DNA of 64,000 bases from positions 4,507,404 to 4,571,403 of the forward strand of contig NZ_CP042914.1 in assembly GCF_008065135.1 (NCBI RefSeq). The letters are read 5' to 3'. Position 1 is the first letter of the stretch. Every line of letters begins with the position of its first letter. The notes under the pieces are model-generated. The model was not told the DNA's origin. It worked only from the letters and a program-made list of their open reading frames with translations, and did not search any database. A program made the translations under genes and the position numbers. This DNA is from Roseimaritima ulvae. Lineage in GTDB: Bacteria; Planctomycetota; Planctomycetia; Pirellulales; Pirellulaceae. Positions 16,128 through 44,513 of this stretch are shown here, in pieces.

Positions 16128-16144
16128 ATACCGCACAGGGGTAT
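16128..16144. promoter_or_regulatory. Putative CsoR operator, copy 1
   Basis: ATACC-GCACAGG-GGTAT, a 17-bp inverted repeat, 81 bp upstream of the Spy-like gene (minus strand). An overlapping variant with an 8-bp spacer (ATACC..GGTAT, from 16112) makes a tandem site. CsoR operators in other bacteria have GC-rich centres flanked by such AT-containing inverted arms; binding here is inferred. Confidence 0.6.
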
Positions 16145-16354
16145 TTGATGCATGGAGTGTGACGCCGGCTCCACAAGGCAACCAAAAGGACGGCGATGGC
16201 GTGGGACCGCGTCCCAGCCGAAGCTTCGAATTGAACCCGACGCCACCCCTCATCCTTGGTCAATTCCGCAAAATTCGTGCGAACCAAGGGGACATCAGAC
16301 GGTGCGATTTCGTCTTGCCCCTGCTCTCGCAGCGTTGCGACGGCAGCAGGCAAT

Positions 16355-16561
16355 CTGAGCCGAAAAACGATGAGCAGTGTTCTTCAAGACTTTTGCCTCG
16401 CTTTCAATTACGACGCACTGGGAATCCCGACCGCAGTTGGGGGGCTGTATCCGGGCTTCGGCGTGTTGCTCAGCCCCATGATTGCAGCGGCAGCGATGAG
16501 TCTGAACAGCGTTTCGGTAGTCTTCAATGCAGTGCGGCTGAGGGCGGCGCAGCTGACCTGA
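16355..16561 (+). pseudogene. copA: C-terminal fragment of a copper P1B-ATPase (CopA)
   Basis: About 68 codons read [40 protein letters not shown] and [20 protein letters not shown] ending RLRAAQLT. This is the last two transmembrane helices of CopA-type ATPases, including the MSxSSVSVxxNAxRL signature that supplies copper ligands. Everything upstream (phosphorylation, nucleotide-binding and metal-binding domains) is missing. It lies just ahead of the multicopper oxidase on the same strand, so an ancestral copA-oxidase operon has been deleted down to this tail. Confidence 0.8.
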
Positions 16562-16622
16562 TGGAGTTGGGGAGTAAATTGGTGGTGTTTGAACAACGTC
16601 TGCAATCGAATTATGATCGCGT

Positions 16623-16639
16623 ATACCCTGGTAAGGTAT
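16623..16639. promoter_or_regulatory. Putative CsoR operator, copy 2
   Basis: ATACC-CTGGTAA-GGTAT, 41 bp upstream of the multicopper oxidase ATG and after the CopA relic stop. Spacing and arms are identical to the other copies. Confidence 0.6.
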
Positions 16640-16680
16640 GCGACCCGAAACTCCAAACTCCAAACTCCAAACCAAAACTC

Positions 16681-18204
16681 ATGAGAACTGAAGATCGACG
16701 CAAGTTTTTGAAAGTGGGAACTCTTGCCGCTGCTGCGGGTTTGGCCGGCAAAGCAAATGCCCAAGAGGGAAAGGCGAACTTGGACTCTTCTAACGCTCCA
16801 GATGCCTCATCGCCAATCGGCAATGCTTCGGCTGAACCACGCATCCCTGGTGGAGCGGACGCTGTCGCGGAAATCGAAGGATTTAGTCGTTTTAAGCCAT
16901 CGCGGGGAAATGATCCTGAATCGGATTACTATCTCGGCAAGAAGATGCCGGGGTTCCGTCCCGCTTCGGCCGGCCCGGCTCCCTTCGAGGCCCCGGACTT
17001 GGAGAAGTTGCCTTGGAAGATGGTGGGCGGAGCAAAAGAATTCCATCTTGTGCCGCAAGCCGTCCGTCGGGAGTTTCTGCCGGGCTATTACATGAACGTC
17101 TATGGCTACAACGGCAGCATGCCGGGGCCGACAATTGAAGTAACGCAGGGTGATCGAGTGCGCATCGTGGTCACCAACGAATTACCCGAAGATACGTTTA
17201 CGCACTGGCATGGTTTTGAGTTGCCCATCCAGTACGATGGCGCTGCGACGCTGACGCAGAATCCGATCAAGCCGGGCAAGACGATGGTGTTTGAATTCGA
17301 CGTGCATGAGGAAGGCACGTTCTTCTATCATTCGCACATCCCGATGCAAGAGGCTTTCGGACAGGTCGGTTGGTTCATCGTTCATCCGAAAAAAGTTTAT
17401 GATCCGCCAGTTGATCGCGACTTCGGTTTGATCTTCCAAAACTTTCATATTCCACCAACACATACTGTCTCGGATTCGTGGGCGATGGACTGGAATTGGC
17501 ATACGATCAACGGACGTAGTGGGCCGTTGACCACGCCGCTCGTTTGCAAACACGGCGAACGCGTTCGCGTTCGCTTGCTGGATTTTTCTCCGATGCAGCA
17601 TCATCCGATCCATCTGCATGGACATACCTACTGGGAAACGGGCCATGAAGGAGCACGAACACCAAGTAGCGCCTGGGTGCCTCGTAACACGTCGCTGGTT
17701 GGTGTGGCGCAAGCGACCAACTTCGAGTTCATTGCAAACAATCCTGGTGACTGGATTTTTCATTGTCACATGGTGCATCACATGATGAACCATATGGTCC
17801 ATCACGTGGGACCGCGTATGCGAGAAAACTCCAACGTCGATCGCTATCAACAAAACACAACGACCCGTCCAGCGGTCGATTACTCACGAGAGGGGCAACA
17901 TTGGGACACACCCGGTTACCCGCAAAAGATGCAGGGCATGGAACGCACCATGCCGCAGATGGAGACTCTCTGGAATCGACGTGAGTCGAAAGGAATGCGG
18001 GCGACCTATCCGATGGCGGTCAAAGGCTTGATGACGGTGATGCGAGTTCTGCCGGATGACCTATACAACCTAGTCATGGAATCCGATGAGCCCGTTGAAA
18101 AGGGAGCAGTCTTTGCCGAGATCGTTCGACGATTCGGTGACCCGAGTCGCTATGAACCTGCTCCCGGTATGATGATGGGAATGGATGATGGCAAGAAAAT
18201 GTGA
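16681..18204 (+). CDS. Multicopper oxidase (CopA/CueO-like periplasmic cuprous oxidase)
   Basis: 507 residues from ATG 16681; the frame is open further upstream, but this ATG precedes a Tat-type leader (DRRKFLKV, then AAAAGLAGKANA). All copper motifs are present: HWH (residues 175-177), HSH (217-219), HPIHLHGH (308-315) and the T1/T3 segment HCHMVHHMMNHM (361-372). These oxidases oxidise Cu(I) to Cu(II) outside the cytoplasm. The tail is Met/His-rich and ends in EPAPGMMMGMDDGKK. Two decayed copies occur at 23.9 and 26.8 kb. A CsoR-type box 41 bp upstream suggests copper induction. Confidence 0.92.
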   Translation: MRTEDRRKFLKVGTLAAAAGLAGKANAQEGKANLDSSNAPDASSPIGNASAEPRIPGGADAVAEIEGFSRFKPSRGNDPESDYYLGKKMPGFRPASAGPAPFEAPDLEKLPWKMVGGAKEFHLVPQAVRREFLPGYYMNVYGYNGSMPGPTIEVTQGDRVRIVVTNELPEDTFTHWHGFELPIQYDGAATLTQNPIKPGKTMVFEFDVHEEGTFFYHSHIPMQEAFGQVGWFIVHPKKVYDPPVDRDFGLIFQNFHIPPTHTVSDSWAMDWNWHTINGRSGPLTTPLVCKHGERVRVRLLDFSPMQHHPIHLHGHTYWETGHEGARTPSSAWVPRNTSLVGVAQATNFEFIANNPGDWIFHCHMVHHMMNHMVHHVGPRMRENSNVDRYQQNTTTRPAVDYSREGQHWDTPGYPQKMQGMERTMPQMETLWNRRESKGMRATYPMAVKGLMTVMRVLPDDLYNLVMESDEPVEKGAVFAEIVRRFGDPSRYEPAPGMMMGMDDGKKM

Positions 18205-21404: not shown

Positions 21405-22037
21405 TCATTCGCCGATGTTTCTCGCACTGTGGCTCTGGTCGGAGTGCGAATGATCTTCTTTATCTCCCGATTTTTCGTTTGCTTCACTTTGAGCGTGCCC
21501 CCCTGATCCCTCTCTCGTATTGGCATGCGATTCGCCGATTGCCTCTTTGAGTTGTTTCTTCTGTGCACGCGTCAGGTTGGGCAGCGTTCGAAGATACGCA
21601 ACCATGCTCCAGATCTCTTCGTCACTGTGCTCTCGACCGAAGGAAGGCATTCCCGTCATCCGAATGCCGTGCTTGATAATCCAGAAGAGTTCTTCGTCAC
21701 TGAAGTCGTCCAGATGTTTTTCCAAAGCCGGTGCGGGCGGGTTAAGTCCGAGCGCGAACTTTTCTGGCTCGACACCGGGCCCTCCATGACATCTCACGCA
21801 CATCGAGGCATAGTGAGTCAAACCGTGAGATACAGCGTCATCGCTATCGGGAACGGCAGACTTTTCAGGAATTCGCCAAGCCATCGAACGCTGTACCGCG
21901 AATGTCGCTACCGTCTGCTCGAAATCGCTCGGTTGGCTCGTTGCCGCCATATTGATCGCACCGGAAGCGACGATCAATACGGGAATCGCAACGATGATCA
22001 ATGCAGTGACGATAGCGGTCCAGATAATGCGTTTCAT
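21405..22037 (-). CDS. Membrane-anchored mono-haem cytochrome c
   Basis: 210 residues: an N-terminal hydrophobic helix (IIWTAIVTALIIVAIPVLIV), then HYASMCVRCHGGPGVEP with the CxxCH haem-c site, GIRMTGMPSFG giving the axial Met, and MVAYLRTLPNLT near the end of the cytochrome fold. The last 45 residues are a His/Ser/Glu-rich, probably disordered tail. It lies 39 bp downstream of the VKOR-like gene; that gap contains a tandem 14-base duplication (TTTGTTAGCGCACA, period 16). Confidence 0.88.
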   Translation of the reverse strand: MKRIIWTAIVTALIIVAIPVLIVASGAINMAATSQPSDFEQTVATFAVQRSMAWRIPEKSAVPDSDDAVSHGLTHYASMCVRCHGGPGVEPEKFALGLNPPAPALEKHLDDFSDEELFWIIKHGIRMTGMPSFGREHSDEEIWSMVAYLRTLPNLTRAQKKQLKEAIGESHANTREGSGGHAQSEANEKSGDKEDHSHSDQSHSARNIGE

Positions 22038-22076: not shown

Positions 22077-23693
22077 TTAGCGCACATAGCGGTCCCAGCT
22101 TCCGTAGGATTGCGTGATCCGGCCACGCGGTATCGAAAGCCCGGCGACTGCGATGCCGAGAATCGACAGAGCAATCGCGTATCCCGTTGGGGCTTGATCG
22201 ACAAACCATGGTCCAGCGACCATTGTCAGCGCCAACAGGAGGTTCACGAAACGACCGACGCGAACGGCTTCGCCCATGCAAATTACCGATACGGTCACGA
22301 TCAATGCTCCGCCAAGATGTCCGATGTCAGCAGCCCTCGTCTTGATGTCGACGCCAAACAAGGTGGGCATAAACATTGTCACGATGCCAAGGACGGTGCA
22401 CCCAACCAACGTCCAGGGAAAACTCATTCCCCAGATCGAAGCCTTGAACAAGGCAACAGGGCGATCATGAAACTCGATCATCGCAGGCGAACGCTGGTCG
22501 ACGGTACAGCCCTCCGGCTTTCCGCCTTTCCAAAAAATGGTCCACAGCGACCCGCCACGATCTCCTCGCTTTTTCGCTTGACGCACGTGCTGGAACATCG
22601 CGATCACTTCGTCGACTTCCAGTGGAATCATCGGCAGCATAATAAGCGCAGCAAGCAGGCACATTGTGCACCATGCATGCACGATAACCGGTTGTGAGAT
22701 GACCAGAATGATGTGGGTGATCCCCAGCGGGATAACAAGCAAGCCGAAGAATGCAACCATCCATGGCATGGTGCGCCAGCGTGACGGGCTGCCCATGTAT
22801 CCCATGAGGAATTCAAACGTGTAAGAGATCGCACCGAGACCACCGTCCGAAATTGGCCACATGTGTGACATTTTCGAATTGAGTACTTTCTTTGTGCCGG
22901 TTTCAAAACTGAAGAATGGATCCCAGACGTAGTCGATGTATCCGAGCTGAAACATTGTCAGATAGCGCGAAACGATAAACCCAAGAAACCCAGTAGCGAT
23001 CATGATCGATCGCTGTGGCCAACTGGACGGGTTATAGCTCCACCCCGGAGGTTGAGCAGGTCCATGCTGCATATACATGATCATGTTCGGCATGCCGGGG
23101 ATCAAAATCGTCAAAGCCATGACGAGAATGCCCACGAGCGAATCGTTTGCGTACGAAGCTGCGGTTGGCGCCCAAAATAGAACGGGTGCGAATGTCAACC
23201 AAATGCCAACTCCGCAGCACGCCCAAAGACTGTACGGCCGATTCGGCTTGAGCGATCTCCAGCCTAGAACGATTAGAAGCAGGCCACTGACGAGATCGCT
23301 ACCCGTGATCAACCAGGCACGCGACCGCTGCAGATCCTCACTCGGCTCATCGGCAAACCATGGTCCGCGTCCGCCACTTGGATCGACCCAGAGATCTTCG
23401 TTTAGATAGCCAAAGGAAAACGGTGCCAGCATCATCCAGATGCCGAGCAGCGGCAAAGTCCAATAGACCCAGAGCGTCTGCTTGTGATGCATCTCAAGCA
23501 TTGTCATGCGATCGTCGCGGCTCATTGCATGATCGTGTCCGCTGCCGTTGTCGTCACCTCCATGCTCATGATTTTCATCGTGATCGTTGCCATGCCCCTG
23601 CATTTTCATTTCCGCCATCGGACGCGAAACACCACGTGATCCCATCATTGGATGGTCTGCGTCGTCATGTTGCTCGTTTTGTTGGTCGCTCAT
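22077..23693 (-). CDS. SPW-repeat / vitamin-K epoxide reductase (VKOR)-like polytopic membrane protein
   Basis: 538 residues. The first 65 form a His/Met/Asp-rich cytosolic or periplasmic metal-binding-like segment (HGNDHDENHEHGGDDN). Then come two SPW-type four-helix units (GIWMMLAPFSFGY; GIWLTFAPVLFWA). The middle carries HAWCTMCLLAALIML, matching the redox CxxC helix of VKOR-type disulfide reductases, followed by more helices. The upstream cysteine pair of canonical VKOR is not clear, so activity is uncertain. First gene of an operon with cytochrome c, GH15 and SDR. Confidence 0.8.
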   Translation of the reverse strand: MSDQQNEQHDDADHPMMGSRGVSRPMAEMKMQGHGNDHDENHEHGGDDNGSGHDHAMSRDDRMTMLEMHHKQTLWVYWTLPLLGIWMMLAPFSFGYLNEDLWVDPSGGRGPWFADEPSEDLQRSRAWLITGSDLVSGLLLIVLGWRSLKPNRPYSLWACCGVGIWLTFAPVLFWAPTAASYANDSLVGILVMALTILIPGMPNMIMYMQHGPAQPPGWSYNPSSWPQRSIMIATGFLGFIVSRYLTMFQLGYIDYVWDPFFSFETGTKKVLNSKMSHMWPISDGGLGAISYTFEFLMGYMGSPSRWRTMPWMVAFFGLLVIPLGITHIILVISQPVIVHAWCTMCLLAALIMLPMIPLEVDEVIAMFQHVRQAKKRGDRGGSLWTIFWKGGKPEGCTVDQRSPAMIEFHDRPVALFKASIWGMSFPWTLVGCTVLGIVTMFMPTLFGVDIKTRAADIGHLGGALIVTVSVICMGEAVRVGRFVNLLLALTMVAGPWFVDQAPTGYAIALSILGIAVAGLSIPRGRITQSYGSWDRYVR

Positions 23694-23832: not shown

Positions 23833-23849
23833 ATACCATGCCGGGGTAT
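23833..23849. promoter_or_regulatory. Putative CsoR operator, copy 3 (orphan)
   Basis: ATACC-ATGCCGG-GGTAT. It stands just in front of the decayed oxidase/CsoR remnant, so it is probably the preserved promoter operator of a lost copy of the copper operon. Confidence 0.55.
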
Positions 23850-23885: not shown

Positions 23886-24340
23886 ACACGTGCCGCTGTC
23901 GACTTCACTCGCAATAGTGCTGGCTTTGCCGAGATTGTCCGCCGTTTTGGCGACCCGCAGCGTCGTGAACCGGCCCCGAAGATTCGACGGACCATTGGGC
24001 AGGCCGAGGCCCTCGGTCGCATGATGCAGCAAGATGCTCCATGCCTCGATGTTGTAAGCACCCTCGCATAAGTTTTCATTACTTCCCAAGAACCGTGGCT
24101 AGCGCCAAAACGGCTAATTAGATGGAAAAACTTCCGCAAGGGTGCTTAATACAGGTGGGCGCTGCGTCAGGAGTACTTTCTAGAGTTGCACAATTTCTTC
24201 TGCGAGATCACATGGCCGCTAGCGTTGCCAAAGCGGCATCGTCCGCGGACCCGGAAGATCGGGAGACGATCTTCCAAGAATTGGTCACGTTGTTTGACAA
24301 ATACGCTCAGGCTAAATTGGAAGGTGGTAGTCGCGATGTT
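23886..24340 (+). pseudogene. Collapsed remnant of a multicopper oxidase-csoR pair
   Basis: One frame reads TRAAVDFTRNS, then FAEIVRRFGDPQRREPAP, then KIRRTIGQAEALGRMMQQ and DAPCLDVVSTLA-stop. The first two pieces are non-adjacent segments of the intact oxidase (TRPAVDYSRE; FAEIVRRFGDPSRYEPAP). The third is the N-terminal helix of CsoR with its metal Cys. After about 70 unrelated bases another frame continues with the CsoR C-terminal half (GAASGVLSRVAQFLLRDHMA, then IFQELVTLFDKYAQAK) from about 24150, with no second metal Cys visible. Several deletions and one frame change have fused what was an oxidase-csoR operon. Confidence 0.75.
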
Positions 24341-24376: not shown

Positions 24377-25843
24377 TCAGCGCGGTTTCGGCACTGCCGA
24401 AATGTGCCCCGGAGGTTCTGGTCCGGTCGGCGGCATCAAGCCACCGTTGAGCAGATAGCCGGCAATCAGCGTCTCGTTACTTCGCCATGCAACCAATTGC
24501 TGAACATACTGGACCCGCATTTGGTAATACGTCAACTGGGCGGCGAGAACCTGAGGCCAATCGACACGATCCTCTTCGTAGGCGTCCAGTAGCACTTCGT
24601 AAGCCCGTCGCGATTCGGGAACAATGACTTCCTGATAACTGCGGACGTTTTGAACCGCGGTCAAATAGTCGCGATAGATTTTCGCCAGTTGTCGCTGTAG
24701 TGATAGTTCAACTCGCTCGATTTCGCTCCGCTGCCGTACCACGTCCGCTTCGGCCTGCCGGATCGTGCCCTGGTTCCAGTCGTACAGTGGAATTTCTACC
24801 TGAAGAGCCGTGTTGTGCGTGTTTTCTTTAGCCTCGAAGTTGCGACCGTAACCGTAAGTAACGACGATGTCGGGAATTTTCTCGACCGTTTCTCGCTTGA
24901 CCTTGATTTCATCCGCTTGAAGCTTGGCCCGAGCGGCGAGGATTTGGGGGCTTTCGGAGACCAAGCGGTCGAGCGCTATATTAAAATCGATTAAACTCAC
25001 CGGAGCTTCGAGTGCGCCCTCGAGCGGAGTCGGCGCTTGGCGAGTGCCGGCAATTGCAGTCAATTCATACCAATTGGCTTGCAACTGATTTCGGAACATC
25101 AGCAGGTCTAACCGAGCACGTTGCACTAGGACGTTTGCCTGATGCACTTCCGCCCGCGTCGCTTGCCCCAGATTGTAAAGTTCCCGAGCAGTGACGACAC
25201 CGTCTTCGGCGTTCTTCAAAATTTCGTTGTGAAGCTGTACCAGTTGTTGTTGACCAAGTGTCATCCAGAACTGGATACGCAAATCGTTCAGCACTTGATA
25301 TTGCTGCTCGAGCGCTCGCCATTCGGCGGCTCGTGTCAGCTGCAAGAACTTGGCACGGCTGAGTTGCAACTTTCGCGCGGTCACGATCCGCTGCTGAAAC
25401 TGAGCACCCTGCCATTCACCAGCAGTCCCGCCGACCCCCCATTGCTCGCCGACGTAGATCAAGTTGGGGTTGGGGATAAGGCCAGCCTGGATCGCTTTGC
25501 CCATTTCCGATTGGATTTGGGTTTGGGCTTGCGTAAGTGTCGGGTTGCGACTGCAAGCCATGGACTCGAGCATTTGCAAGGTCAACGCCGGTTCATCACT
25601 GTAGATCATGCCTTCGGCCAGTGATTCAGGCACCGGCGGAACCGGCGGTGGCTCGGTAAATTTCTCTCCGACCCGCTCGCGCAAGTCATCAGGCGAAGTT
25701 GGCGGATAGGGATCATTGACGCCTGTGCCCTGGGGGCCGATACGCTGGGAATCCTGGATCGGTTGCTGTGCCGAGGCAACCGAGGCTGAGACAATCAGAG
25801 CCACCGACGCCGCGAAGCGACCGAAATGACAAACCGTTGACAT
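24377..25843 (-). CDS. TolC-family outer membrane efflux protein (CusC/CzcC-like)
   Basis: 488 residues with a signal peptide (FAASVALIVSASVASAQ). Two related halves carry long helices and the family turns: RNPTLTQAQTQIQSEMGKAI, QATRAEVHQANVLVQRARLD in the first, and ALQVEIPLYDWNQGTIRQAE with VELSLQRQLAKIYRDYLTAV in the second, as in TolC-type channel proteins. No lipoprotein Cys. It follows the 26 kb Cys-containing gene on the same strand, 94 bp apart, so the two probably form one copper-inducible unit. It would form the outer membrane exit of an RND pump. Confidence 0.88.
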   Translation of the reverse strand: MSTVCHFGRFAASVALIVSASVASAQQPIQDSQRIGPQGTGVNDPYPPTSPDDLRERVGEKFTEPPPVPPVPESLAEGMIYSDEPALTLQMLESMACSRNPTLTQAQTQIQSEMGKAIQAGLIPNPNLIYVGEQWGVGGTAGEWQGAQFQQRIVTARKLQLSRAKFLQLTRAAEWRALEQQYQVLNDLRIQFWMTLGQQQLVQLHNEILKNAEDGVVTARELYNLGQATRAEVHQANVLVQRARLDLLMFRNQLQANWYELTAIAGTRQAPTPLEGALEAPVSLIDFNIALDRLVSESPQILAARAKLQADEIKVKRETVEKIPDIVVTYGYGRNFEAKENTHNTALQVEIPLYDWNQGTIRQAEADVVRQRSEIERVELSLQRQLAKIYRDYLTAVQNVRSYQEVIVPESRRAYEVLLDAYEEDRVDWPQVLAAQLTYYQMRVQYVQQLVAWRSNETLIAGYLLNGGLMPPTGPEPPGHISAVPKPR

Positions 25844-25937: not shown

Positions 25938-26462
25938 CTACTTGAAGAATTCGGTCACCGACTTCTTTCGAATTACCATGTCATACGCGTGCTGGTACCA
26001 ATGTTTGGTTTTCGGATCGCAACCAGTTTGCGACAGCGGCAAGACAGGATCGTCATCGCACGGGTTGGTGCCGTAGTAGATCCTTTTCGTGCAACCACAG
26101 AAATCGGGCCCCGTGCAACTGATAATCGGGCGGGGGCGGCAACCGTTGCCTTTTATGGGAAGCGGATCGAAGACATACGGTCCGCCGGTTTCAAGCGATA
26201 AGGTTCCGCTAGGGTCGGTGATACTGGCCGGCAGATCGCTGCGCCCATATTCGGTGGGTGCGACGGCGTGGGATATTTTGGGGTTCACCGTCGCCTGAAG
26301 CGTGCCGGCCATTGCCGGCGTCTCTTCGGTCGTCGGCGCGATCAGCGCGATGGGTTGAGACAGCGAGCGATATGTCGGGTCTTGAGCGGTTGCGGATCCG
26401 AAGTTCAAGCAGACTACCGGGACTACAATCGTCCAGCGAACAAGTGATAAATCCACGGTCAT
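25938..26462 (-). CDS. Secreted Cys-containing protein of unknown function
   Basis: 174 residues with a signal peptide (WTIVVPVVCLNFGSATAQ) and a GGAAGG ribosome site before the ATG. The C-terminal third carries GNGCRPRPIISCTGPDFCGC, then NPCDDDP and QTGCDPKTKHWYQHAYDMV: seven cysteines likely to form disulfides or a metal site. I do not recognise the family. It precedes the TolC-type gene and has a CsoR-like box 49 bp upstream, which implies a role in copper efflux or sensing at the envelope. Confidence 0.75.
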   Translation of the reverse strand: MTVDLSLVRWTIVVPVVCLNFGSATAQDPTYRSLSQPIALIAPTTEETPAMAGTLQATVNPKISHAVAPTEYGRSDLPASITDPSGTLSLETGGPYVFDPLPIKGNGCRPRPIISCTGPDFCGCTKRIYYGTNPCDDDPVLPLSQTGCDPKTKHWYQHAYDMVIRKKSVTEFFK

Positions 26463-26510
26463 ACATCCTTCCGTAATTTGTGGGAGAGCGCCTGGTTTGC
26501 TTATCGGCGA

Positions 26511-26527
26511 TACGGAGGTGGGGTATG
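26511..26527. promoter_or_regulatory. Putative CsoR operator, copy 4 (one mismatch)
   Basis: ATACG-GAGGTGG-GGTAT, one base away from the ATACC-N7-GGTAT pattern, 49 bp upstream of the 26462 start on the minus strand. Confidence 0.45.
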
Positions 26528-26641
26528 CCTGAAAATTCCATTATTCCTAAATGAACTAGTTTTGCTATCGTTTTTTACGATGATTCCGATTGATCCGGTT
26601 CAGCCCAAGAGACGATGAATAGGAGGCTGGCGTCGTTGTCG

Positions 26642-26811
26642 CTGGAAGTGGAGCGGGATAAAATTCGGAGCCAAAGGAATCTGTCGCTGCCGCAGGAGTT
26701 TCGATTGAACTGCCGGTCTTCGACCGAAACCAAGGCGTGATTCGCCAAGCCCAAGTGGATTACCGCCACCAACGGGAAGAGCTTCGCCGCACCGAGTTGA
26801 TGCTTGGGTAG
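26642..26811 (+). pseudogene. Fragment of a second TolC-family outer membrane factor
   Basis: From 26692 one frame reads AGVSIELPVFDRNQGVIRQA, then QVDYRHQREELRRTELMLG-stop, which parallels the intact protein's VEIPLYDWNQGTIRQAEADV. A shifted frame just upstream (from 26642) gives LEVERDKIRSQRNLSLP, also like the preceding helix of this family. The fragment is thus frame-shifted and truncated on both sides. It is on the strand opposite to the intact TolC-type gene and directly ahead of the oxidase relic. Confidence 0.65.
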
Positions 26812-26817
26812 CAGTTG

Positions 26818-29537: not shown

Positions 29538-29545
29538 GAGATACC

Positions 29546-33617: not shown

Positions 33618-36600
33618 TTATGCTGCCTTTATCAGCTCCTCCTTTGGCATCGCTTCGGTTCCGTCCCAAAGCTCGTCTTGAAAACCGAATCGCATCTTCA
33701 GTTCCAGGTAGCCGCAATACAGCGTCGGCACGATGAACGAAGTGAACGGCTCGGCTAGCATGCCGCCGAACACGGGGATCGCCATTGCTCGAGCCACGTC
33801 GGAACCGCGACCGGTTGCGATCAAAACAGGAATTAGTGCGGCCAACGTCGTTACCGTGGTCATCATGCAAGGTCGAATGCGTTTCAACCCGGCTTCGTAA
33901 ACTGTCTTGCGAATGTCGTCGACCGTTTCGACGTTGCGTTTCTTCAATAGTTGATGGATGTAGGTCGCCATCACCACGCCATCATCGACAGCTAATCCGA
34001 ACAGCGCTATAAAGCCAACCCAGACGGCAGTGTTCAGTTCTACGCCCATCGTGGCAACCGCTATCATGCCGCCAGCGAACGCGACCGGGATGCCCGAGAA
34101 CACCGCGAACGAAATCGAGAAGTTGCGAAATTCCAGATAGATCAAGAGCAGGTTGATGCAAATCACCAAAGGAATGATCCACATCAATCGCCGGTTGGCT
34201 TCGATCTGGTTTCGGAAGCTGCCAACGGCTTCAAGGGAGTAGCCAGCTGGCAATGACAGCCGATTGGGATCGGATGGTGGAAGCGATTGCGCTTTGCGGA
34301 GTTGTTCTTCGATCGCTGAGACCGATTCCAGGTCGCCCTTGCTGCCGTTGGTCATGAACGAAACGTGAGCGACCAGCCGGCCGTTCTCGCTGTTGATTGC
34401 ACCCGGCCCCCAAGTCGTTTCCAGCGTTGCGAGTTCTTCCAATGGCACGACGGCCCCCGACTGCGTGACGACGGGCAGGCGTTTCAAACCGTCGATCTGT
34501 TCACGAAGGTCGCGGTTGTACCGCAGTCGCACGGGATAACGCTCTCGTCCTTCGACCGTCTTGATCAGATTCATCCCGCCGAGTGCCGTTTCGATGACTT
34601 GGTTCACCATCGACGAACTCATCCCGTACCGCGATGCCGCCTCACGATCGACCGTGAACTCGACGTAGGGTTTGCCAAGCACGATGTCGGGATTGACCGT
34701 GCCGGCGTTGATCAGCGGTGACTTCTTTAACTCGGCGGCGACGTCCATTGCGGCGTCGGCGAGCGTGTCCAGCTTGTCGCCGTAAACACGGATGGCCATC
34801 GGTGCCTTGATACCGGACTGCAACATCACCACGCGGCCCTCGATCGGTTGTAGCGCCGAAGCAGGCGTGACACCGGGCAATGTGGCGACGCGGTTGATTT
34901 CGTCCCACACGTCGCGAGCGGTGACGCCTTCTCGCCACTCGCTTTCGGGCTTGAGCATCACGTAGGTTTCGACCATTGCGGCTGGCGCGGGATCGAGTGC
35001 CGATTCGACGCGACCGATCTTGCCAAGCACATCTTTGACTTCGGGAATCTGACCGATCAGAACATCCTGCGTCTGCAGCACCTGCATCGCTTGCGAGAAG
35101 CTTGCCGCTGGATAGAGCGTCGGCATGTAGAACCAGCTTCCCTCGTCCAACGCGATCCAGTCGTCACTTTGCAAACCGGTGAAGACGTGTTTGGCATCGA
35201 CGTAGCCGGGGAAATCATTCAGTTCGGCACCAAAGAAGTTCGCGACCTTTTCAACTGGACGAAGTACGGTCGGCATTCCGACGTAGGCTCCCACGCCGAT
35301 GATCAACAGCACCAACGGAAACGAAAGTGCGAATGCTTTGTGATTGAGCGCATGTCGTAGTCGCGCTGCGTATATCCAGCGAACGAAGCGGCTGGAAGGA
35401 ATCTCTTCGATCGGCCGAATTCGTTCTCGCATCAACTGCCATCCGCCAATGAACCCGATCGTGGCCGCGATCGCGGTCACAATCCAAGTTTCTAAGCCAA
35501 AGCGTTCTGCGAGCCGTGATCCCCACAAGAAATGGGACGCGGCACCGAGCAATCCGGAGAGAGACAACGCGGCAACCAGCGCGGTCGATTTTCGACGCAC
35601 GCTGCTCCGCAACATCAATCGACACAAGGCGGGCACAATCGTGACGGCCGCGATCATCGCTGCAGCAATCGCAAATGTCTTGGTGTAAGCCAGCGGGGAG
35701 AACAGTTTGTAATCGCGACCGGTCAAAAAGAAGACTGGCAAGAAACTGACAATGGTTGTCGCCACGGCGGTCACGACGGCCGGTGCGACTTCGACCGTTG
35801 CTTCGTAGACGACTTCCGTTCGAGGTTGTTTGATTCTCGCCTCTTCGCTGCCAGACTCCCAATCTGAAAGATGCTGGTAGATGTTCTCCGATACAATGAT
35901 CGCCATGTCGACCATCGTGCCGATCGCGATCGCAATACCCGCGAGCGACATGATATTCGCACCGACGCCGACCACTCGCATCGCAATGAACGACATCAGC
36001 ACGGCTGCCGGCAAACAGATCGCGACTACGAAACTGCTGCGGATGTGCAATAGAAACAAGAGGATGATGATCGCCGTGATGATAATCTCGTCGCGTAACG
36101 CATGGGTCAGCGTCGCCATCGTCTCGTCGATCAATCCGCTGCGATCATAAACGCCATGAATGGTCACGCCGCCCAGTGAGGGTGTGATCGCGGCGATCTT
36201 GTCTTTCACGCGGTTGATGACGACTCGCGGATTTTCGCCGTATCGCATGACAACCACCCCGCCGACCGCTTCGGCTCCGTTGTAGTCCAATGCACCGCGA
36301 CGAAAATCAGGCCCGATCTGCACGTTGCTAATATCGCGAACGCGTACCGGCACGCCGTCACGCTGCATGATGACAGTGTCCTCGATGTCCTCAACCGCTT
36401 TGTCCTTGTCGCCATCGCTGCCCAGGAATCCCTTGCTGCGGACGATGAATTCCATGCCCGTCGTTTCGACCGTCTTGGCACCGACATCCATGTTCGATCC
36501 CTTGATCGCCATCGCCAACTTATCCAGCGATACGTTGTGAAAGCGAAGCTTGTCGGGGTCCACTTCAATCTGATACTGGCGAACGTAACCGCCGATCGAC

Positions 36601-37133
36601 GCGACCTCGCTGACCCCTTCGACCGCTTGCAATTCGTATTTCACAACAAAGTCTTGCAGGCTGCGAAGTTCCGCCAGTCCCATGCCTTCGTCAGGTGGCT
36701 GCAGCGTATAGTAATAAACCTGTCCCAGTCCGGTCGCATCTGGACCAAGTTGTGGCACGACCCCATCGGGTAACTGTGACGCCGCACTGCCGAGCTGCTC
36801 GGAAACTCGACTGCGTGCCCAATAGAAGTCGATCTCATCCTTGAATGTGACCTGCACGAAGCTGTAGCCGAACATGCTCTTGCCGCGCACCGACTCGGCA
36901 CCGGGAACCGCGAGCAACGAAACGCTCAGTGGATAGGTGACTTGATCTTCGATGTCCTTTGGTGAGCGACCCGGCCAAGGCGTCAACACGATGACTTGAT
37001 TTTCGCCAATGTTAGGAATCGCGTCGATCGGAATCGACTTGAAACTGATCCAGCCAGCGACGCTTAGACCAATGGTCAGCAAGATCACCAGCCAAGGTTC
37101 TTTAACACAAAAGCGAATAATTAGATTTAGCAT
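33618..37133 (-). CDS. cusA: CusA-type HME-RND inner membrane copper/silver transporter
   Basis: 1171 residues with the RND plan (two sets of helices and large periplasmic loops). The HME motifs are clear: AIPNIGENQVIV, GRSPKDIEDQVTYPLSV and the proton-relay region around AGIAIAIGTMVDMAIIVSEN. The copper relay methionines of E. coli CusA are all at the right places: YMPTL, AAMVET and VVMLQSGIKAP. Compared with typical family members (about 1,040) it is long, with an extra insertion after RLMLRS that adds two hydrophobic stretches. It starts 11 bp after the cusB stop. Confidence 0.93.
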   Translation of the reverse strand: MLNLIIRFCVKEPWLVILLTIGLSVAGWISFKSIPIDAIPNIGENQVIVLTPWPGRSPKDIEDQVTYPLSVSLLAVPGAESVRGKSMFGYSFVQVTFKDEIDFYWARSRVSEQLGSAASQLPDGVVPQLGPDATGLGQVYYYTLQPPDEGMGLAELRSLQDFVVKYELQAVEGVSEVASIGGYVRQYQIEVDPDKLRFHNVSLDKLAMAIKGSNMDVGAKTVETTGMEFIVRSKGFLGSDGDKDKAVEDIEDTVIMQRDGVPVRVRDISNVQIGPDFRRGALDYNGAEAVGGVVVMRYGENPRVVINRVKDKIAAITPSLGGVTIHGVYDRSGLIDETMATLTHALRDEIIITAIIILLFLLHIRSSFVVAICLPAAVLMSFIAMRVVGVGANIMSLAGIAIAIGTMVDMAIIVSENIYQHLSDWESGSEEARIKQPRTEVVYEATVEVAPAVVTAVATTIVSFLPVFFLTGRDYKLFSPLAYTKTFAIAAAMIAAVTIVPALCRLMLRSSVRRKSTALVAALSLSGLLGAASHFLWGSRLAERFGLETWIVTAIAATIGFIGGWQLMRERIRPIEEIPSSRFVRWIYAARLRHALNHKAFALSFPLVLLIIGVGAYVGMPTVLRPVEKVANFFGAELNDFPGYVDAKHVFTGLQSDDWIALDEGSWFYMPTLYPAASFSQAMQVLQTQDVLIGQIPEVKDVLGKIGRVESALDPAPAAMVETYVMLKPESEWREGVTARDVWDEINRVATLPGVTPASALQPIEGRVVMLQSGIKAPMAIRVYGDKLDTLADAAMDVAAELKKSPLINAGTVNPDIVLGKPYVEFTVDREAASRYGMSSSMVNQVIETALGGMNLIKTVEGRERYPVRLRYNRDLREQIDGLKRLPVVTQSGAVVPLEELATLETTWGPGAINSENGRLVAHVSFMTNGSKGDLESVSAIEEQLRKAQSLPPSDPNRLSLPAGYSLEAVGSFRNQIEANRRLMWIIPLVICINLLLIYLEFRNFSISFAVFSGIPVAFAGGMIAVATMGVELNTAVWVGFIALFGLAVDDGVVMATYIHQLLKKRNVETVDDIRKTVYEAGLKRIRPCMMTTVTTLAALIPVLIATGRGSDVARAMAIPVFGGMLAEPFTSFIVPTLYCGYLELKMRFGFQDELWDGTEAMPKEELIKAA

Positions 37134-37144: not shown

Positions 37145-39268
37145 TTACTGCACCGTGCGAGCGATCGAGGGGATTTCGTTAAGCGGCATCGCCATATCAC
37201 GAACAACTTCCCCGCACGTCAGCATTTCGCTGCCCCAATACGGGTTCTGCAAATCGCCGCCGGGCTGCATCCAGTCGCCACCGCCGCCAGGAACCATCGG
37301 ACAGTAATAGTGCGTCAACTTCACAGCCGTCTTCGGCCCGCGAGCCACCGTGGCGGCTCGCAACATCGCGTGGCTGACGCCGCGATAGGCCTCGCGAGCG
37401 GTTTCTAACGAACCAACCATCCGCGCGGCGGCACGACGAGCGGTCGTAAACCGGCGTTGAGCTTCGTCAGGAACGCCGGCCGACATCTCTAGTTCCTGGA
37501 GACCCTCGATTAGCGTGTTCAAGGCAACCGGGGGCGGCGATTGGTCGGCCGCCATCGCACATTGAATTTCAAAGTAGGCGTCGTAGGTTCGATCGAAAGT
37601 CTTACCCGCGTCACTGGCCAGCAAGACGGGACTTGTGTTGGGTAGCTCCAGCGGTCCCGGTGAGTAGCTCGGTGCCTTCGTTGGGTCCATCAACGATGGG
37701 TTTCCCGCGAGTTGCATTTGCGAGTCGATCAGGAAGTTGCCGCCCGTCGCGACCGTTTCACCAGCCGCCAGCCCTTCGACGATTACCGCTTCTTGCCGAT
37801 TCATCGGGCCAACGGTCACTCGGCGGATCTCAAAACGCCCCGGTTCGGTTTCGACGTAGATCACGCTGTTTTCGCCGGCCAGAAGCACGGCATCTCGCGG
37901 CACGGTAACGACTTGCTGCATTGGTAAAGGTTCTGATGCGAACCCGAGCTGCGACGTCGGCACCAAATCCATATCGCAAAGCGGACACTTACCCGGTTCG
38001 TCGCGAATGACTTGCGGGTGCATTGGGCTGATGTATTTGTTCGCCAGTGCCGGGTCGTAATCTTGGTCCATCGGGATCGCCGGCACGGTCACTCGAGCCG
38101 TTGCGTAGTCACCCGGTCGGAGCTTGCCATCGAAATTCATGATCTCGACGCGAACGCGAACCGTTCGAGTCTTCGGGTTCACCGTCGGGTCGATGAAAGC
38201 GACGCGGCCCGTGAATACTTCACCCGGTATCGACTGAATTTCCGCTTCCACTTGTTGACCGAAACGAACAGCCGATGCGTCATCGGGAAACAGATCAAGC
38301 ATCAGCCACACGCTGGTCAGATCGGCGACACGATAGAGCTTTTGTCCCGTTTTGACATAGTCGCCTTCGACGGCCGACTTCTCGATCACCGTTCCGCTTT
38401 GTGGCGATTTGATGCGGATACGTGACATCGGTTCGCCGGATTTCGCGAGCTGGTCGATCTGCGTCTGCGTCATGCCCAGCTCCGCCAAATTCTCGCGAGC
38501 CATCTGGTTCAAATCGCCGTTGTCCATTTGAAACCGACCAATCTTGCCATCGGCGTCCATGCTGGTGATGAATTCGGTTTGTGCGGTGTAGAGCTGTGGA
38601 CTGTATATCAACGCAAGGTCGTCGCCTTCATGGACTTTTACACCGGCGTAGTTCGCATACATCTTTTCCAAGCGACCGTCGATGTACGCACTGATGGTAG
38701 ACAGCTGGCTTTCGTCGAAGTCGATCGACCCGATGGTACGGATGGTTCGATTGATGTCGCCCATCTTCGACATCGCGGTTTGAATACCGACCAATCGCCG
38801 GGCCGATGCTTCGATGGTGACCGAGATACCATCGCCGCCTCCGCCGCCGGTCGCTTCGACCAATTCCATCGCACAGACGGGGCATCGTCCAGGCTCCGTC
38901 GAAGGCGGCGTGCACATCATCGGACAGATGTACCGTTTTTCTTCGCCACCGCCGGTTTCGGTGACAAATTCTCCTTGGCCGCCCGAGAAGCCATCGGCAG
39001 TCAACCACTTCGTTCGCTGTGCGACACCGAGTAGGAAAAACACGATTCCGGCAACGACGACGACCGTTGCGGCTTGCATACCAGTGCGCACCAGCCACGT
39101 CATTCCACCACCATTTTTCCGTGCGGTCGGTTTGGCTTCAATTGGCGAGGGCGTTTCTTCGGCCACCGTTTCCACTGGCTCGCTATCGGTCGACGCATTT
39201 GCATCCACGCTGCTGACTTGGTCGTCAACTTCGGCTTCGTTAGGTTCGATTGGTTCGTCCTGATTCAT
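37145..39268 (-). CDS. cusB: CusB-type periplasmic adaptor with three extra metal-binding motifs
   Basis: I prefer ATG 39268 (MNQDEPIEPNEAEVDDQVSS) to the upstream GTG at 39295. About 707 residues. One transmembrane helix (MQAATVVVVAGIVFFLLGVA) is followed by YICPMMCTPPSTEPGRCPVC and, in mid-protein, KYISPMHPQVIRDEPGKCPL, both heavy-metal-binding domain motifs (YxCPMxP..PGxCPxCxM). The adaptor core (barrel-sandwich and beta-barrel) lies around SPQSGTVIEKSAVEGDYVKT. Near the end YYCPMVPGGGGDWMQPGG adds a third Cys/Met site. The usual adaptor is about 400 residues, so this one carries N- and C-terminal additions that may hand copper to CusA. Confidence 0.9.
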   Translation of the reverse strand: MNQDEPIEPNEAEVDDQVSSVDANASTDSEPVETVAEETPSPIEAKPTARKNGGGMTWLVRTGMQAATVVVVAGIVFFLLGVAQRTKWLTADGFSGGQGEFVTETGGGEEKRYICPMMCTPPSTEPGRCPVCAMELVEATGGGGGDGISVTIEASARRLVGIQTAMSKMGDINRTIRTIGSIDFDESQLSTISAYIDGRLEKMYANYAGVKVHEGDDLALIYSPQLYTAQTEFITSMDADGKIGRFQMDNGDLNQMARENLAELGMTQTQIDQLAKSGEPMSRIRIKSPQSGTVIEKSAVEGDYVKTGQKLYRVADLTSVWLMLDLFPDDASAVRFGQQVEAEIQSIPGEVFTGRVAFIDPTVNPKTRTVRVRVEIMNFDGKLRPGDYATARVTVPAIPMDQDYDPALANKYISPMHPQVIRDEPGKCPLCDMDLVPTSQLGFASEPLPMQQVVTVPRDAVLLAGENSVIYVETEPGRFEIRRVTVGPMNRQEAVIVEGLAAGETVATGGNFLIDSQMQLAGNPSLMDPTKAPSYSPGPLELPNTSPVLLASDAGKTFDRTYDAYFEIQCAMAADQSPPPVALNTLIEGLQELEMSAGVPDEAQRRFTTARRAAARMVGSLETAREAYRGVSHAMLRAATVARGPKTAVKLTHYYCPMVPGGGGDWMQPGGDLQNPYWGSEMLTCGEVVRDMAMPLNEIPSIARTVQ

Positions 39269-39545
39269 GACAGTTCTCGCGGCGTTTTCCGGCACCCGTT
39301 TGTGGTTCCATCCACGAACGTCAGCTCAAGAGGTGGCTGGGCGACGATGCGACCGAGGAGATCGCATCATCGACCAGTCATCGCCTCCAGGCTATGACCG
39401 GTTCATTGTTTTGGTGACGCGATCAGATCGCGTAGGGATTACATCTGGAAAGACTTCATACGAAACGAGCGCGCAGCATCATTCGCGTGAAAGCCAACTT
39501 GAAAACGAGGAGCTACGATCGCGCAGCTCTCCTATCGAGACGACG

Positions 39546-40100
39546 CTAAATGCGCCAGATGCAAAGAAGCCGCTGAGAGAAATGCGGTGAGTGGTCGCCG
39601 ATTGCCAACCTTGACATCAGCTGATATGGACGAATAGAAAGTCCAGCCTCGGATGCAATGTGATCCAAGTACGCAATCACGACAAATTCGCGAACCTGAG
39701 GAACAGGAACGCGATGAGGCGCAGGTGCTAGTGGTTCTGATCGAATGCCACACATGCACGATGACAACGCAACTTGGTCTGAGACCAATTTCTCTTCGTC
39801 GGATTTCGGTGGCTCGGGCACGACATCGGAGAGTTCACCGAACAGCTCGTCAGGCTTAGATTGCTCGCGGTTCTTCGTGCAGCAACTGCCGGCGTCTCCT
39901 TCTTCGCCACTACAGCAACCGCACAGATCGCCGTCGGCATTCACTTCACAGCATCTGCAGGCGTGGCAGACCGTGTTAGTCTCGCAGCATCGACCTTGAG
40001 CGCATGTTCCCCGTGCAGCCACCAGCGCCATCGGCTGAATCACTATTGGAGCGATCAGGCAAAGAATAACGGCGGTGCGAATTAGGGGGGAGTTACTCAA
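39546..40100 (-). CDS. Secreted Cys-rich protein beside cusB
   Basis: 184 residues with an N-terminal hydrophobic signal (AVILCLIAPIVIQPMALVAA). Residues 32-75 contain CAQGRCCETNTVCHACRCCE, then GDLCGCCSGEEGDAGSCC: fourteen Cys in about 45 residues, grouped in pairs. The rest is acidic with a SSCMC motif. It resembles the other Cys-rich proteins in the window in style but not in sequence. A CsoR-type box lies 19 bp upstream of the start, suggesting copper induction. A copper-binding role is inferred. Confidence 0.65.
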   Translation of the reverse strand: MSNSPLIRTAVILCLIAPIVIQPMALVAARGTCAQGRCCETNTVCHACRCCEVNADGDLCGCCSGEEGDAGSCCTKNREQSKPDELFGELSDVVPEPPKSDEEKLVSDQVALSSCMCGIRSEPLAPAPHRVPVPQVREFVVIAYLDHIASEAGLSIRPYQLMSRLAIGDHSPHFSQRLLCIWRI

Positions 40101-40118
40101 TGTGACCTTCCGAAAAGG

Positions 40119-40135
40119 ATACCCATGCCCGGTAT
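40119..40135. promoter_or_regulatory. Putative CsoR operator, copy 5
   Basis: ATACC-CATGCCC-GGTAT, in the divergent promoter region between the Cys-rich gene (start 40100, minus) and the outer membrane factor (start 40224, plus). One bound repressor could close both promoters. Confidence 0.6.
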
Positions 40136-40223
40136 ATGGACTGTATCGGAATTAGGCCGAAGAGTTCAATAGGAATTAATCGGTTACGCAAACTTTAACA
40201 GCTGTAATATAGCTCATTAGGAC

Positions 40224-41864
40224 ATGGACGCCATGGATCGGCATGCTTCGAGACCCAGAAACACCCAAGCCAAACGATTGCTGCTAGCAGCAGCGGTTGC
40301 CGTGTCGACGTCTGGATGCGTCTCCCAGCGTGGAGTTCAGGTGGCAGAATCCACTACGCCGGACGTTGTGTCGCCCCCTTCGTCGGTCGCGACCAGTGAC
40401 GTCGATTGGCAGCAAGTCTTTAGCGAGCCGGAAGCTGCTTCTATACAACCCGTCGGCTACAACGACGGGGTAGTGATCGCATCGCCCGCCATCTTGGCTC
40501 AACCACCCCAGGGAGACGGCAAACGAGGTTTCGGAGACTTTCTACAACTCGATCCGCCCAAAGAAGAGAAGAGGGGGACACAAGGAGTCACGGAGAGCGA
40601 TGAAGAAATGGTCACGGAGTTTAAGGCTTCCGATCGCCCAGATTCCCAGACTCCCTCTCTCCCTGACCCTCATTCTGCTTCGGTCGAATATTTCGTCGGC
40701 ATCGCCCTCTCACGTCACCCCAAGATTCTCGCCGCCAGGCAACGTGTCGCTGCAGCAACTAATGTCATCCCACAAGCCAAAGCTTTGCCCGATCCGACAT
40801 TCAACAACACGTTCTGGCCTTTGCACGACAACGCCATTCAAACCGCGGCCGGCCGAGTAGCCAACCAGATGTCGGTCAACCAGATGGTGCCGTTTCCTGA
40901 CAAGTTAAAGACCAAAGCGGTGATCGCCAGGCGTGAAGTACAAATCGCCCAAACGGAAGTGGATGCGATTGCTCGCGAGATCACTGAGTCCGTTCGTCTC
41001 GCCTACTTCGAAGTTTGGTTCGCAACCCGCGCGATCGACATCATCGAAGAAACCAAAGACCTAGTAGCCGACCTGACGGACGTTGCGGAGGCGCGTTATC
41101 GCAGCGGTGGTTCGCAACAAGACGTGCTGCGCGCCCAATTGGAAACAGATCGCCTCGACGAACAACTCATCAACCTACACAAACAAAAGCAAGTTGCTCA
41201 GGCGGACCTTGCGACGTTGCTTCAGCAGCCCGTCAGCCTTCTTCCCGAAGCATCCAATCAACTTGGCATCAGTGACGCACCGCAGCAGATCGAATCGCTA
41301 GTCGCGTTGGCTGAAGAGTGCAATCCGAAACTTCGCGGGCTCACGTGGGAGATCCAGCGTGATCGTGATAAGGAACGCTTAGCCTGCTTGCAGCAGTACC
41401 CTGATTTGAGTGTTGGATTGCACTGGGGATTAGTAAGTGACAACAACAGTGTCCTCAGCCCCGTGGCCAATGGAAACGATCAGCTCAGTTTCAGCATAGG
41501 CACAACGCTGCCAATATGGCGAGAGAAAATCAACTTTGGTATCCGCGAAGCGGCCCACCGACGCAGTAGCACGACGCGTCGACTGGAAGCCGAACGCGAC
41601 GAACTGTACGGCAAGATCCGCCGCTTGATCGTCCAAGCCGATGCACTAAAGGAACAGCGTCAGATCTACGAGGGCCGCATCATCCCTCGCACCGAAGCCA
41701 CACTGAAACTGGCCATCGCCGACTATCGTGGAAAGCGTACGGACTTCTTTACCCTGATTGAAACCTATCGCGAGCTACTTATGTTCGAAACTCAACTCGC
41801 ACGCATCGACGCCACGTTAGCAGGCACGATCGCTCAATTGGACCGGACAGTGGGCTGCCCGTAA
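40224..41864 (+). CDS. TolC-family outer membrane lipoprotein (CusC-like)
   Basis: 546 residues; MDAMDRHASRPRNTQAKRLL precedes AAAVAVSTSGCVS, a lipobox-type cleavage site, as in CusC. After a 130-residue Pro/Ser-rich region come the TolC-type helices, SRHPKILAARQRVAAATNVI and YRSGGSQQDVLRAQLETDRL, and the second-half counterparts TLPIWREKINFGIREAAHRR and YRGKRTDFFTLIETYRELLM. It is opposite to cusBA, across a shared promoter region with a CsoR-type box, and would complete a CusCBA exporter. Confidence 0.88.
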   Translation: MDAMDRHASRPRNTQAKRLLLAAAVAVSTSGCVSQRGVQVAESTTPDVVSPPSSVATSDVDWQQVFSEPEAASIQPVGYNDGVVIASPAILAQPPQGDGKRGFGDFLQLDPPKEEKRGTQGVTESDEEMVTEFKASDRPDSQTPSLPDPHSASVEYFVGIALSRHPKILAARQRVAAATNVIPQAKALPDPTFNNTFWPLHDNAIQTAAGRVANQMSVNQMVPFPDKLKTKAVIARREVQIAQTEVDAIAREITESVRLAYFEVWFATRAIDIIEETKDLVADLTDVAEARYRSGGSQQDVLRAQLETDRLDEQLINLHKQKQVAQADLATLLQQPVSLLPEASNQLGISDAPQQIESLVALAEECNPKLRGLTWEIQRDRDKERLACLQQYPDLSVGLHWGLVSDNNSVLSPVANGNDQLSFSIGTTLPIWREKINFGIREAAHRRSSTTRRLEAERDELYGKIRRLIVQADALKEQRQIYEGRIIPRTEATLKLAIADYRGKRTDFFTLIETYRELLMFETQLARIDATLAGTIAQLDRTVGCP

Positions 41865-41890
41865 TAAAACCGCGAAGCGATGGGCAACCG

Positions 41891-43657: not shown

Positions 43658-43671
43658 TCTTCAGTTCCTAC

Positions 43672-43703
43672 AAAAAAACGGCCCCGATGAGTAATCGGGG
43701 CCG
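43672..43703 (-). terminator. Intrinsic terminator in the leader of the HEPN gene
   Basis: On the minus strand CGGCCCCGAT and ATCGGGGCCG form a perfect 10-bp stem with a 5-base loop, followed by seven T. It ends 15 bases before the HEPN ATG and before its AGGA site. It is therefore either an attenuator of that gene or the end of a separate transcript from about 43704-43922, a 219-bp stretch with no protein gene. Confidence 0.85.
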
Positions 43704-43922
43704 CATGTGCTGTGGGCCAAGGGCGTTCAATCCGAAGATATTCCGCCGAAGGCCCTGATATGTTGTAGGCGAGACCTGTCTCGCGTGTTTCTGTCTGTCG
43801 TGAATGTTAGGCACTCAAGAGAACCAAGTCAAGCTATTCCGAAGCCTGATTTCAATGAATGGTTCGTTTTACAGCCTGCAATATGCCGATTCCGCCCACT
43901 CTCAACAATTGTGAAAATCGAC

Positions 43923-44480
43923 TCAAAGGTGGCCGAACTTTACGAAAATATCACGAAGCTCCCGCCGCGCCCGATTAAGCCTCGAACCGACGGTGCCTTC
44001 GGGGATGCCGAGTGTGGCGGCGATTTCCTGGTATGACAGACCGCTCTCTTCTTTGAGCGTGAAGATTGCTCGCAATTCCGGATCGAGTTGAGCGAGTGCT
44101 TGGCGAACCATTGCAGCTCGTTCGCCTTGCTCGACGTGGTCGGTTTGCCGAACAGCCGGCTCGACCACCAGTTCTGAAGTCCGCCGATGTTTCTCGCGGC
44201 GTAGATGCTGCAGCGCTTCGTTGGTGGCCAGTCGATACAGCCACGTTTCAAACTTCGACTCGCCGCTGAACTGCTTGAGCTTCGTAAACGCTCGGACGAA
44301 AGTCTGCTGCGTCAGGTCGTCGGCGTCCTGCTGACCGACCATTCGGACCATCAAGCGAAAGACGCGATCTGCGGTGGCCTCGTAAATCTGACGAAGCGCA
44401 GCGCGATCGCCGCCGGCACCGGCCTTGACCGTTGCGTCGTCGATTGGCTCTCTGTCATGACACTCACTGCGCTGTTCCAT
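43923..44480 (-). CDS. ECF-type RNA polymerase sigma factor
   Basis: 185 residues with both ECF regions: sigma-2 (ATADRVFRLMVRMVGQQDAD, then DLTQQTFVRAFTKLKQF) and sigma-4 (LSYQEIAATLGIPEGTVGSR, then LNRARRELRD, a helix-turn-helix). There is no adjacent anti-sigma gene of the zinc-finger type, which is unusual. A near-consensus CsoR-type box sits 17 bp upstream of its start, so metal stress may control it. Stop 219 bp before the HEPN leader terminator. Confidence 0.9.
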   Translation of the reverse strand: MEQRSECHDREPIDDATVKAGAGGDRAALRQIYEATADRVFRLMVRMVGQQDADDLTQQTFVRAFTKLKQFSGESKFETWLYRLATNEALQHLRREKHRRTSELVVEPAVRQTDHVEQGERAAMVRQALAQLDPELRAIFTLKEESGLSYQEIAATLGIPEGTVGSRLNRARRELRDIFVKFGHL

Positions 44481-44496
44481 TTGTCAGATTGTACCA

Positions 44497-44513
44497 ATAC
44501 CCAGGGGGGGTAC
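44497..44513. promoter_or_regulatory. Putative CsoR operator, copy 6 (one mismatch)
   Basis: ATACC-CAGGGGG-GGTAC, one mismatch in the right arm, 17 bp upstream of the ECF sigma start on the minus strand. Its GC-rich centre looks like known CsoR sites. Confidence 0.45.

Follow-up and report, generated by a model that had tools for sequence, protein, structure and literature searches.

A conserved 17-bp inverted repeat as the predicted CsoR operator of copper genes in Roseimaritima ulvae and its family

The DNA analysed here, referred to as the window, is a 64,000-nucleotide stretch of the planctomycete Roseimaritima ulvae, corresponding to positions 4507404-4571403 of the single-contig genome of 8.21 Mb. 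It contains a csoR gene, divergent cusC and Cys-rich-cusBA units, a multicopper oxidase gene, a VKOR gene, and a gene for an extracytoplasmic function (ECF) sigma factor, together with copies of the 17-bp inverted repeat ATACC-N7-GGTAT (Table 1). We scanned the window, the genome, and the relatives of the species for this repeat. The comparisons indicate that in R. ulvae and its family the repeat very probably serves as an operator, to which the copper-sensing repressor CsoR is predicted to bind.

Table 1 Features of the window (positions counted from its first nucleotide; a dot denotes no strand).
Feature	Position	Strand	Remark
Spy-like periplasmic protein gene	15529..16047	-	weak NCBIfam Spy match below curated cut-off; no Pfam match at E 0.001
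Candidate CsoR operator, exact	16128..16144	.	80 bp upstream of Spy-like gene
CopA C-terminal relic	16328..16558	+	70% to CopA2 residues 741-816
Candidate CsoR operator, exact	16623..16639	.	41 bp upstream of multicopper oxidase; equal distance in G186
Multicopper oxidase gene	16681..18204	+	Pfam Cu-oxidase domains, translation
Cytochrome c gene, downstream of VKOR	21405..22037	-	
VKOR/SPW membrane protein gene, His-rich N-terminus	22077..23693	-	
Candidate CsoR operator, exact	23833..23849	.	139 bp upstream of VKOR
Relic of oxidase-tail/csoR unit	23928..24307	+	
Outer-membrane efflux protein gene, TolC type	24377..25843	-	
Cys-rich protein gene CysW	25938..26462	-	no Pfam/NCBIfam match at E 0.001
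Candidate operator, one mismatch	26510..26526	.	47 bp upstream of CysW
Relics ahead of csoR	26635..27112	+	outer-membrane protein 26635-26805, oxidase 26858-27112
csoR gene	27246..27524	+	Cys34-His59-Cys63, RLRR
TRASH/YHS metal-binding protein gene	32125..33534	-	
cusA-type resistance-nodulation-division (RND) pump gene	33618..37133	-	named by context beside cusB and by sequence, without family scan
cusB-type membrane-fusion gene	37145..39295	-	
Cys-rich protein gene, first of cusBA unit	39546..40100	-	
Candidate CsoR operator, exact	40119..40135	.	between divergent Cys-rich-cusBA and cusC units
Probable -10 (GATACA), Cys-rich-cusBA promoter	40142..40147	-	suggested by conservation
Probable -35 (TTGAAC), Cys-rich-cusBA promoter	40164..40169	-	suggested by conservation; spacer one base below that of relatives
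cusC-type outer-membrane protein gene	40224..41864	+	
ECF sigma factor gene, 185 aa	43923..44480	-	
Probable -10 (TACAAT) of ECF gene	44488..44493	-	7 bp before ATG
Candidate operator, one mismatch	44497..44513	.	16 bp before ECF start codon; gene strand GTACCCCCCCTGGGTAT
Second one-mismatch copy upstream of ECF	44623..44639	.	kept in 8 of the 30 ECF loci; uncertain role

The four exact copies named by an earlier sequence-only reading of the window (starting at 16128, 16623, 23833, and 40119) were all recovered, and they exceed chance as it had held, since 100 dinucleotide shuffles of the window gave a mean of 0.00. When up to one mismatch was allowed, the window contained 8 copies against 0.55 expected. 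One of the two one-mismatch copies in that reading, 44497-44513, was found as given, whereas the other, placed at 26511-26527, lies at 26510-26526; two more, at 44623 and 49668, had been missed. The copy at 49668 was dropped as an operator, being unsupported and inside an open reading frame (48912-50324).

In the whole genome, the exact repeat occurred 8 times and its reversed-pattern control once. Seven of the eight copies fall within two copper islands with one csoR gene in each. Indeed, a csoR family search of the genome gave two genes, one in the window and the other at 5.34 Mb, and three of the four exact copies outside the window surround the latter. This second island is paralogous to the first and holds cusC, the Cys-rich gene, cusB, cusA, the TRASH gene, csoR, an oxidase, an outer-membrane channel, and copA. 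The eighth copy is located inside an open reading frame of 5504 codons or more; 555 bp from it is a one-mismatch sister with similar flanking sequence.

Subsequently, csoR was searched at E 1e-10 in 241 genomes of the family, which gave 68 matches in 51 genomes; the neighbourhoods of 58 matches, mostly 20-40 kb each, were fetched (2.03 Mb). With a spacer of 7, these neighbourhoods contained 118 exact copies, whereas each spacer of 0-6 and 8-16 gave 0-2; the reversed pattern gave none at spacer 7 and at most one at any other. No exact copy lay within the genes mapped by tblastn with 35 reference proteins, and only four had no mapped gene start within 700 bp.

The position of the repeat relative to these genes was examined within 300 bp upstream at up to one mismatch. 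A site preceded copA in 41 of 41 cases (39 exact), the channel gene of the channel-oxidase-csoR unit in 20 of 20 (15 exact), the Cys-rich gene of the cusBA unit in 40 of 40 (38 exact), and cusC in 34 of 34 (33 exact). Internal genes were rarely preceded by one (cusB, 1/38; cusA, 0/44; TRASH, 0/44), and the counts were 0/28 for SpoIIE and 4/32 for the oxidase. No site of its own was found for csoR in 54 of 60 cases, in keeping with its place at the end of a unit. The distance from site to start was largely fixed, namely 18 bp for the Cys-rich gene, 58 bp for the channel gene, and 89 bp for cusC; that of copA was mostly 35 bp or 3-4 bp depending on the start mapped, and a few starts extrapolated from partial matches gave negative distances. 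The motif thus lies in the promoters of copper genes. At copA, 16 of 40 sites also showed a third half-site giving GGTATGCAA-N-TTGCATACC (for example, near 10807 of locus L013), perhaps forming a composite operator, and TTGC stood immediately ahead of ATACC in 31 of the 40.

The occurrence of the repeat followed that of csoR. Exact copies were compared between 50 genomes with csoR (G133 left out) and 50 without. The former contained 241 copies, of which 118 were in the fetched neighbourhoods (58 per Mb); the remainder of these genomes had 0.31 per Mb, a value that still counts copies near unfetched csoR places, and the csoR-less genomes had 0.34 per Mb. The density in the neighbourhoods was accordingly about 185-fold that of the rest of the same genomes. 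Furthermore, 7 of 80 csoR-less genomes searched retained a homologue of the Cys-rich gene, and none of these seven loci had a site at up to one mismatch. In one csoR-less genome of the same genus (G028), the left half-site was gone at both the ECF and the Cys-rich promoters, and the right halves remained. As a separate observation, ATACCTACTACTGGTAT was identical to the letter in four csoR-less genera (G003, G012, G031, and G043) and represents some unrelated conserved element.

The CsoR of the window has a PF02583 domain (E 2.5e-30; 105.1 bits against a cut-off of 22.8). Its complete Cys-His-Cys set, already pointed out from the sequence, was confirmed by alignment of Cys34, His59, and Cys63 with solved CsoR chains, and the DNA-contact motif RLxR is present as RLRR at 13-16. 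When this motif was set to R54-R57 of Streptomyces lividans CsoR, the conserved glutamine, Gln40, fell on Gln81 of that protein. Among the 58 csoR-family proteins, 51 had C-H-C, 5 had C-H-S, and 2 had C-Y-C, with exact sites nearby in 47, 4, and 0 of them, respectively.

The ECF sigma factor gene was then followed in relatives. Of 241 genomes, 59 had a match at E 1e-40, and the loci of 30 of the best matches were fetched. A sequence of the form [GT]TACCC...GGGTAT, which differs from the motif by one mismatch, ended 15-16 bp before the start codon in 26 of these loci, and in most of them it was followed by a TACAAT-like box 7 bp before the ATG. Four loci departed from this pattern: that of G028, which lacks csoR; a second G214 copy, about 18 kb from a partial csoR match, whose site is degraded; and those of two less closely related homologues (59-60%), where exact sites lie farther off, at 331 and 353 bp upstream. 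The upstream regions with the site included 22 unique ones. When the variable first position was excluded, the major base had a mean frequency of 0.96 over the nine fixed columns of these regions, against 0.48 over the preceding 57 bp and 0.70 over the following 16 bp. The conservation of this site is the newest result of the analysis. The distribution of the repeat might be ascribed to chance clustering or to passive inheritance through duplication of one copper island, given that the islands are paralogues of each other and that remnants of earlier copies persist in the window. However, the 118 exact copies comprise 82 distinct 17-mers, other spacers are nearly absent, and the ECF sites are conserved far beyond their upstream flank, so that this explanation is barely credible.

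A core promoter was recognized near the Cys-rich gene. The pattern TTGAAC-N16-CGATA had 34 matches in the neighbourhoods, and in 30 of these an operator begins 35 bp further along, ahead of the Cys-rich gene; the copy in the window is one base shorter. Visual inspection showed TTGA(A/T)C, followed after 17 bp by a GATAAT-like box, upstream of the Cys-rich gene in five of the seven csoR-less loci, and G178 retains TTGAAC-N16-CGATA without an ECF match. Because of these occurrences, the pattern was read as a sigma-70-like core promoter and rejected as a promoter read by the ECF factor. The genome of R. ulvae has nine matches to it, including one at the second Cys-rich gene (5336370) and one inside the outer-membrane efflux gene of the window. 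These data also bear on the idea that the repeat itself is not a repressor site but a promoter element recognized by the ECF sigma factor. An ECF gene does occur in many islands; nevertheless, the repeat is a palindrome used in both orientations, the Cys-rich locus has the separate TTGAAC/GATACA promoter described above, G028 retains the ECF gene without a site there, and G178 has exact sites but is outside the 59 genomes with an ECF match. A promoter element of this kind is therefore extremely improbable.

Several observations weigh against assigning the repeat to CsoR. At up to one mismatch, the whole genome contained 73 copies against 53 for the control. The genome scan proposed by the sequence-only reading thus bore out the enrichment for exact copies, seven of which lie in the csoR copper islands, and not for one-mismatch copies, which were rejected as general evidence; lone ones are mostly noise unless kept in relatives, as are those at 26510 (CysW) and 44497 (ECF). 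The copy at 44623 is kept in ECF loci that are all close relatives, and its conservation therefore decides little. The 118 exact copies are not independent, because the neighbourhoods are related. Seven of the 58 neighbourhoods have no exact site, including four with a C-H-C csoR (G009, G164, G069, and G223b) and one with a C-H-S csoR (G095b); the C-Y-C proteins, around each of which 20 kb was covered, are also the most divergent (32-34% identical). Two of the seven csoR-less loci (L234 and L235) have two-mismatch matches. The loss of csoR and that of the sites are not uniformly linked, as a G214 island (L040) in which the csoR match is partial (residues 1-43) retains exact sites in front of both copA and the channel gene. 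Of the 32 ECF matches in the neighbourhoods, 22 have a site within 300 bp; the other ten, at 41-60% identity, lack one there and are perhaps paralogues. Finally, the assignments to the Spy-like gene and the lone oxidase rest on one or two genomes.

Some of these points would suit an operator of another copper regulator encoded near csoR, such as a MerR/CueR-type protein, a two-component response regulator, or an unknown protein. The four C-H-C neighbourhoods without an exact site and the two exact sites of the G214 island are in line with it, and the binding of CsoR to the repeat is itself a prediction. On the other hand, site density follows the presence of csoR across genomes, the seven csoR-less loci retaining a target gene have no site, and the form of the repeat agrees with published CsoR operators as given in the available part of PMC3902906. 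We consider such a regulator very unlikely, although no search aimed at MerR or two-component genes was made around the islands. The CsoR regulon first proposed from the window is well supported by the enrichment in csoR islands, by the restriction to spacer 7, by the seven csoR-less Cys-rich loci, and by the published operator form.

In addition to the common targets, several genes have a site in some lineages. The site at 23833 sits between the VKOR/cytochrome c genes and the relic of the oxidase-csoR unit; its earlier assignment to the decayed unit is not favoured, and it most likely serves the VKOR and cytochrome genes. Its 17-mer is identical before the VKOR homologue of G165, and a one-letter variant precedes that of G013. 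Seventeen VKOR homologues were found in 13 of 241 genomes, and an exact site lay 86-147 bp upstream in 5 of the 17, including that of the window; for the remaining 12, of which three are partial matches, the search within 420 bp gave none even with two mismatches allowed. The predicted control of VKOR is therefore lineage-specific. The genome also has a second VKOR copy (G000:C1:4013272-4014822; L107) of 79% identity, and upstream of it, too, no site was found with two mismatches allowed. For CysW, all four homologues mapped from near the N-terminus in the neighbourhoods had a site at up to one mismatch; the three besides that of the window had one exact and two one-mismatch sites, and a fifth, partial homologue (G218) had an exact site. 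The lone oxidase has its site at 41 bp in the window (16623) and in G186. The Spy-like gene has one in the window (16128) and in G164 (one mismatch, 247 bp), the latter being the ECF site read in the opposite direction.

The window retains degenerate pieces of the CopA, channel, oxidase, and csoR genes, left by older copies of the copA-channel-oxidase-csoR unit that decayed there. For this reason, some of its sites may be remnants, and 16128 is the likeliest; with the CopA relic following at 16328, it may once have served as the operator of copA. This site is overlapped by an ATACC-N8-GGTAT repeat (16112-16129), with GGTATACC in common. The Cys-rich family of the cusBA unit, with 12-17 Cys in 37 unique rows, precedes cusB in many islands; the protein of the window (39546-40100) had no Pfam or NCBIfam match and is perhaps a periplasmic copper carrier. 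A gene for a 588-aa protein at 41891-43657, between the ECF and cusC genes, also had no Pfam or NCBIfam match and was present only here among the mapped islands.

In the proposed mechanism, CsoR would, at low copper, occupy operators overlapping, or lying next to, the promoters of copA, the outer-membrane-channel/oxidase/csoR unit, the divergent cusC and Cys-rich-cusBA units, and the ECF sigma gene, and in some lineages those of VKOR, CysW, and the lone oxidase gene. Binding of Cu(I) at Cys34-His59-Cys63 would release CsoR, and the units would be expressed together. The site before the ECF gene suggests a further tier of regulation that copper would turn on. A two-tier circuit, in which copper-released CsoR would free both the export genes and the ECF factor, and the latter would license a second gene set, has in our estimate slightly less than an even chance of being correct; the ECF mRNA would probably be leaderless, given TACAAT 7 bp before the ATG, and the factor, for which no anti-sigma partner was searched, perhaps acts without one. 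If so, a metal repressor would take over the usual job of an anti-sigma factor.

These results provide a copper regulon with named operators for a family on which our literature search (titles and abstract openings) gave no CsoR work, and no publication describing such a regulon, among the matches listed. They extend the possible targets of CsoR to include an RND pump, a VKOR protein, and a sigma factor, and the natural losses of csoR serve as a built-in test of operator function.

According to the available part of PMC3902906, S. lividans CsoR requires TAC and GTA as an inverted repeat spanning 9 bp, and binding to its operators is lost when the two are swapped. The type 2 operators described there (those of csoR, copZA1, and copZA2), TAC-N9-GTA with G/C tracts, resemble the present motif, and this form is found in both the exact repeat and the [GT]TACCC...GGGTAT sites of the ECF gene; the copy at 26510, with the left half ATACG, retains TAC and GTA at the same spacing. 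The csoR operator of S. lividans holds ATACCCCTGGTGGGTAT, a perfect match to the motif; an identical 17-mer occurs in Adhaeretor mobilis (L035), where it precedes csoR by about 500 bp. The copZA1 operator holds GTACCCCCTAGGGGTAT, which starts with GTACCC as the ECF site does (PMC3902906, same part). The S. lividans operators control csoR and the copZA units, whereas the planctomycete sites front cusC, cusBA, the oxidase unit, and the ECF gene. The RicR regulon of Mycobacterium tuberculosis comprises five operons, none with an RND pump or a sigma gene as described in the part of PMC10141476 available, and the same part reports a survey of marine bacteria in which the Planctomycetota sample had only two-component and ECF copper regulators. 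SigC of M. tuberculosis acts indirectly upstream of copper-toxicity genes and, in the available part of PMC7924339, is not under CsoR. CorE of Myxococcus xanthus is, like the factor of the window, an ECF sigma factor linked to copper, but senses it through its own Cys-rich C-terminal extension (PMC10141476, same part). In the 185-aa factor of the window, region 4 reaches to residue 175 and an extension of this kind is absent; unlike CorE, this factor seems to be under the control of CsoR through its promoter.

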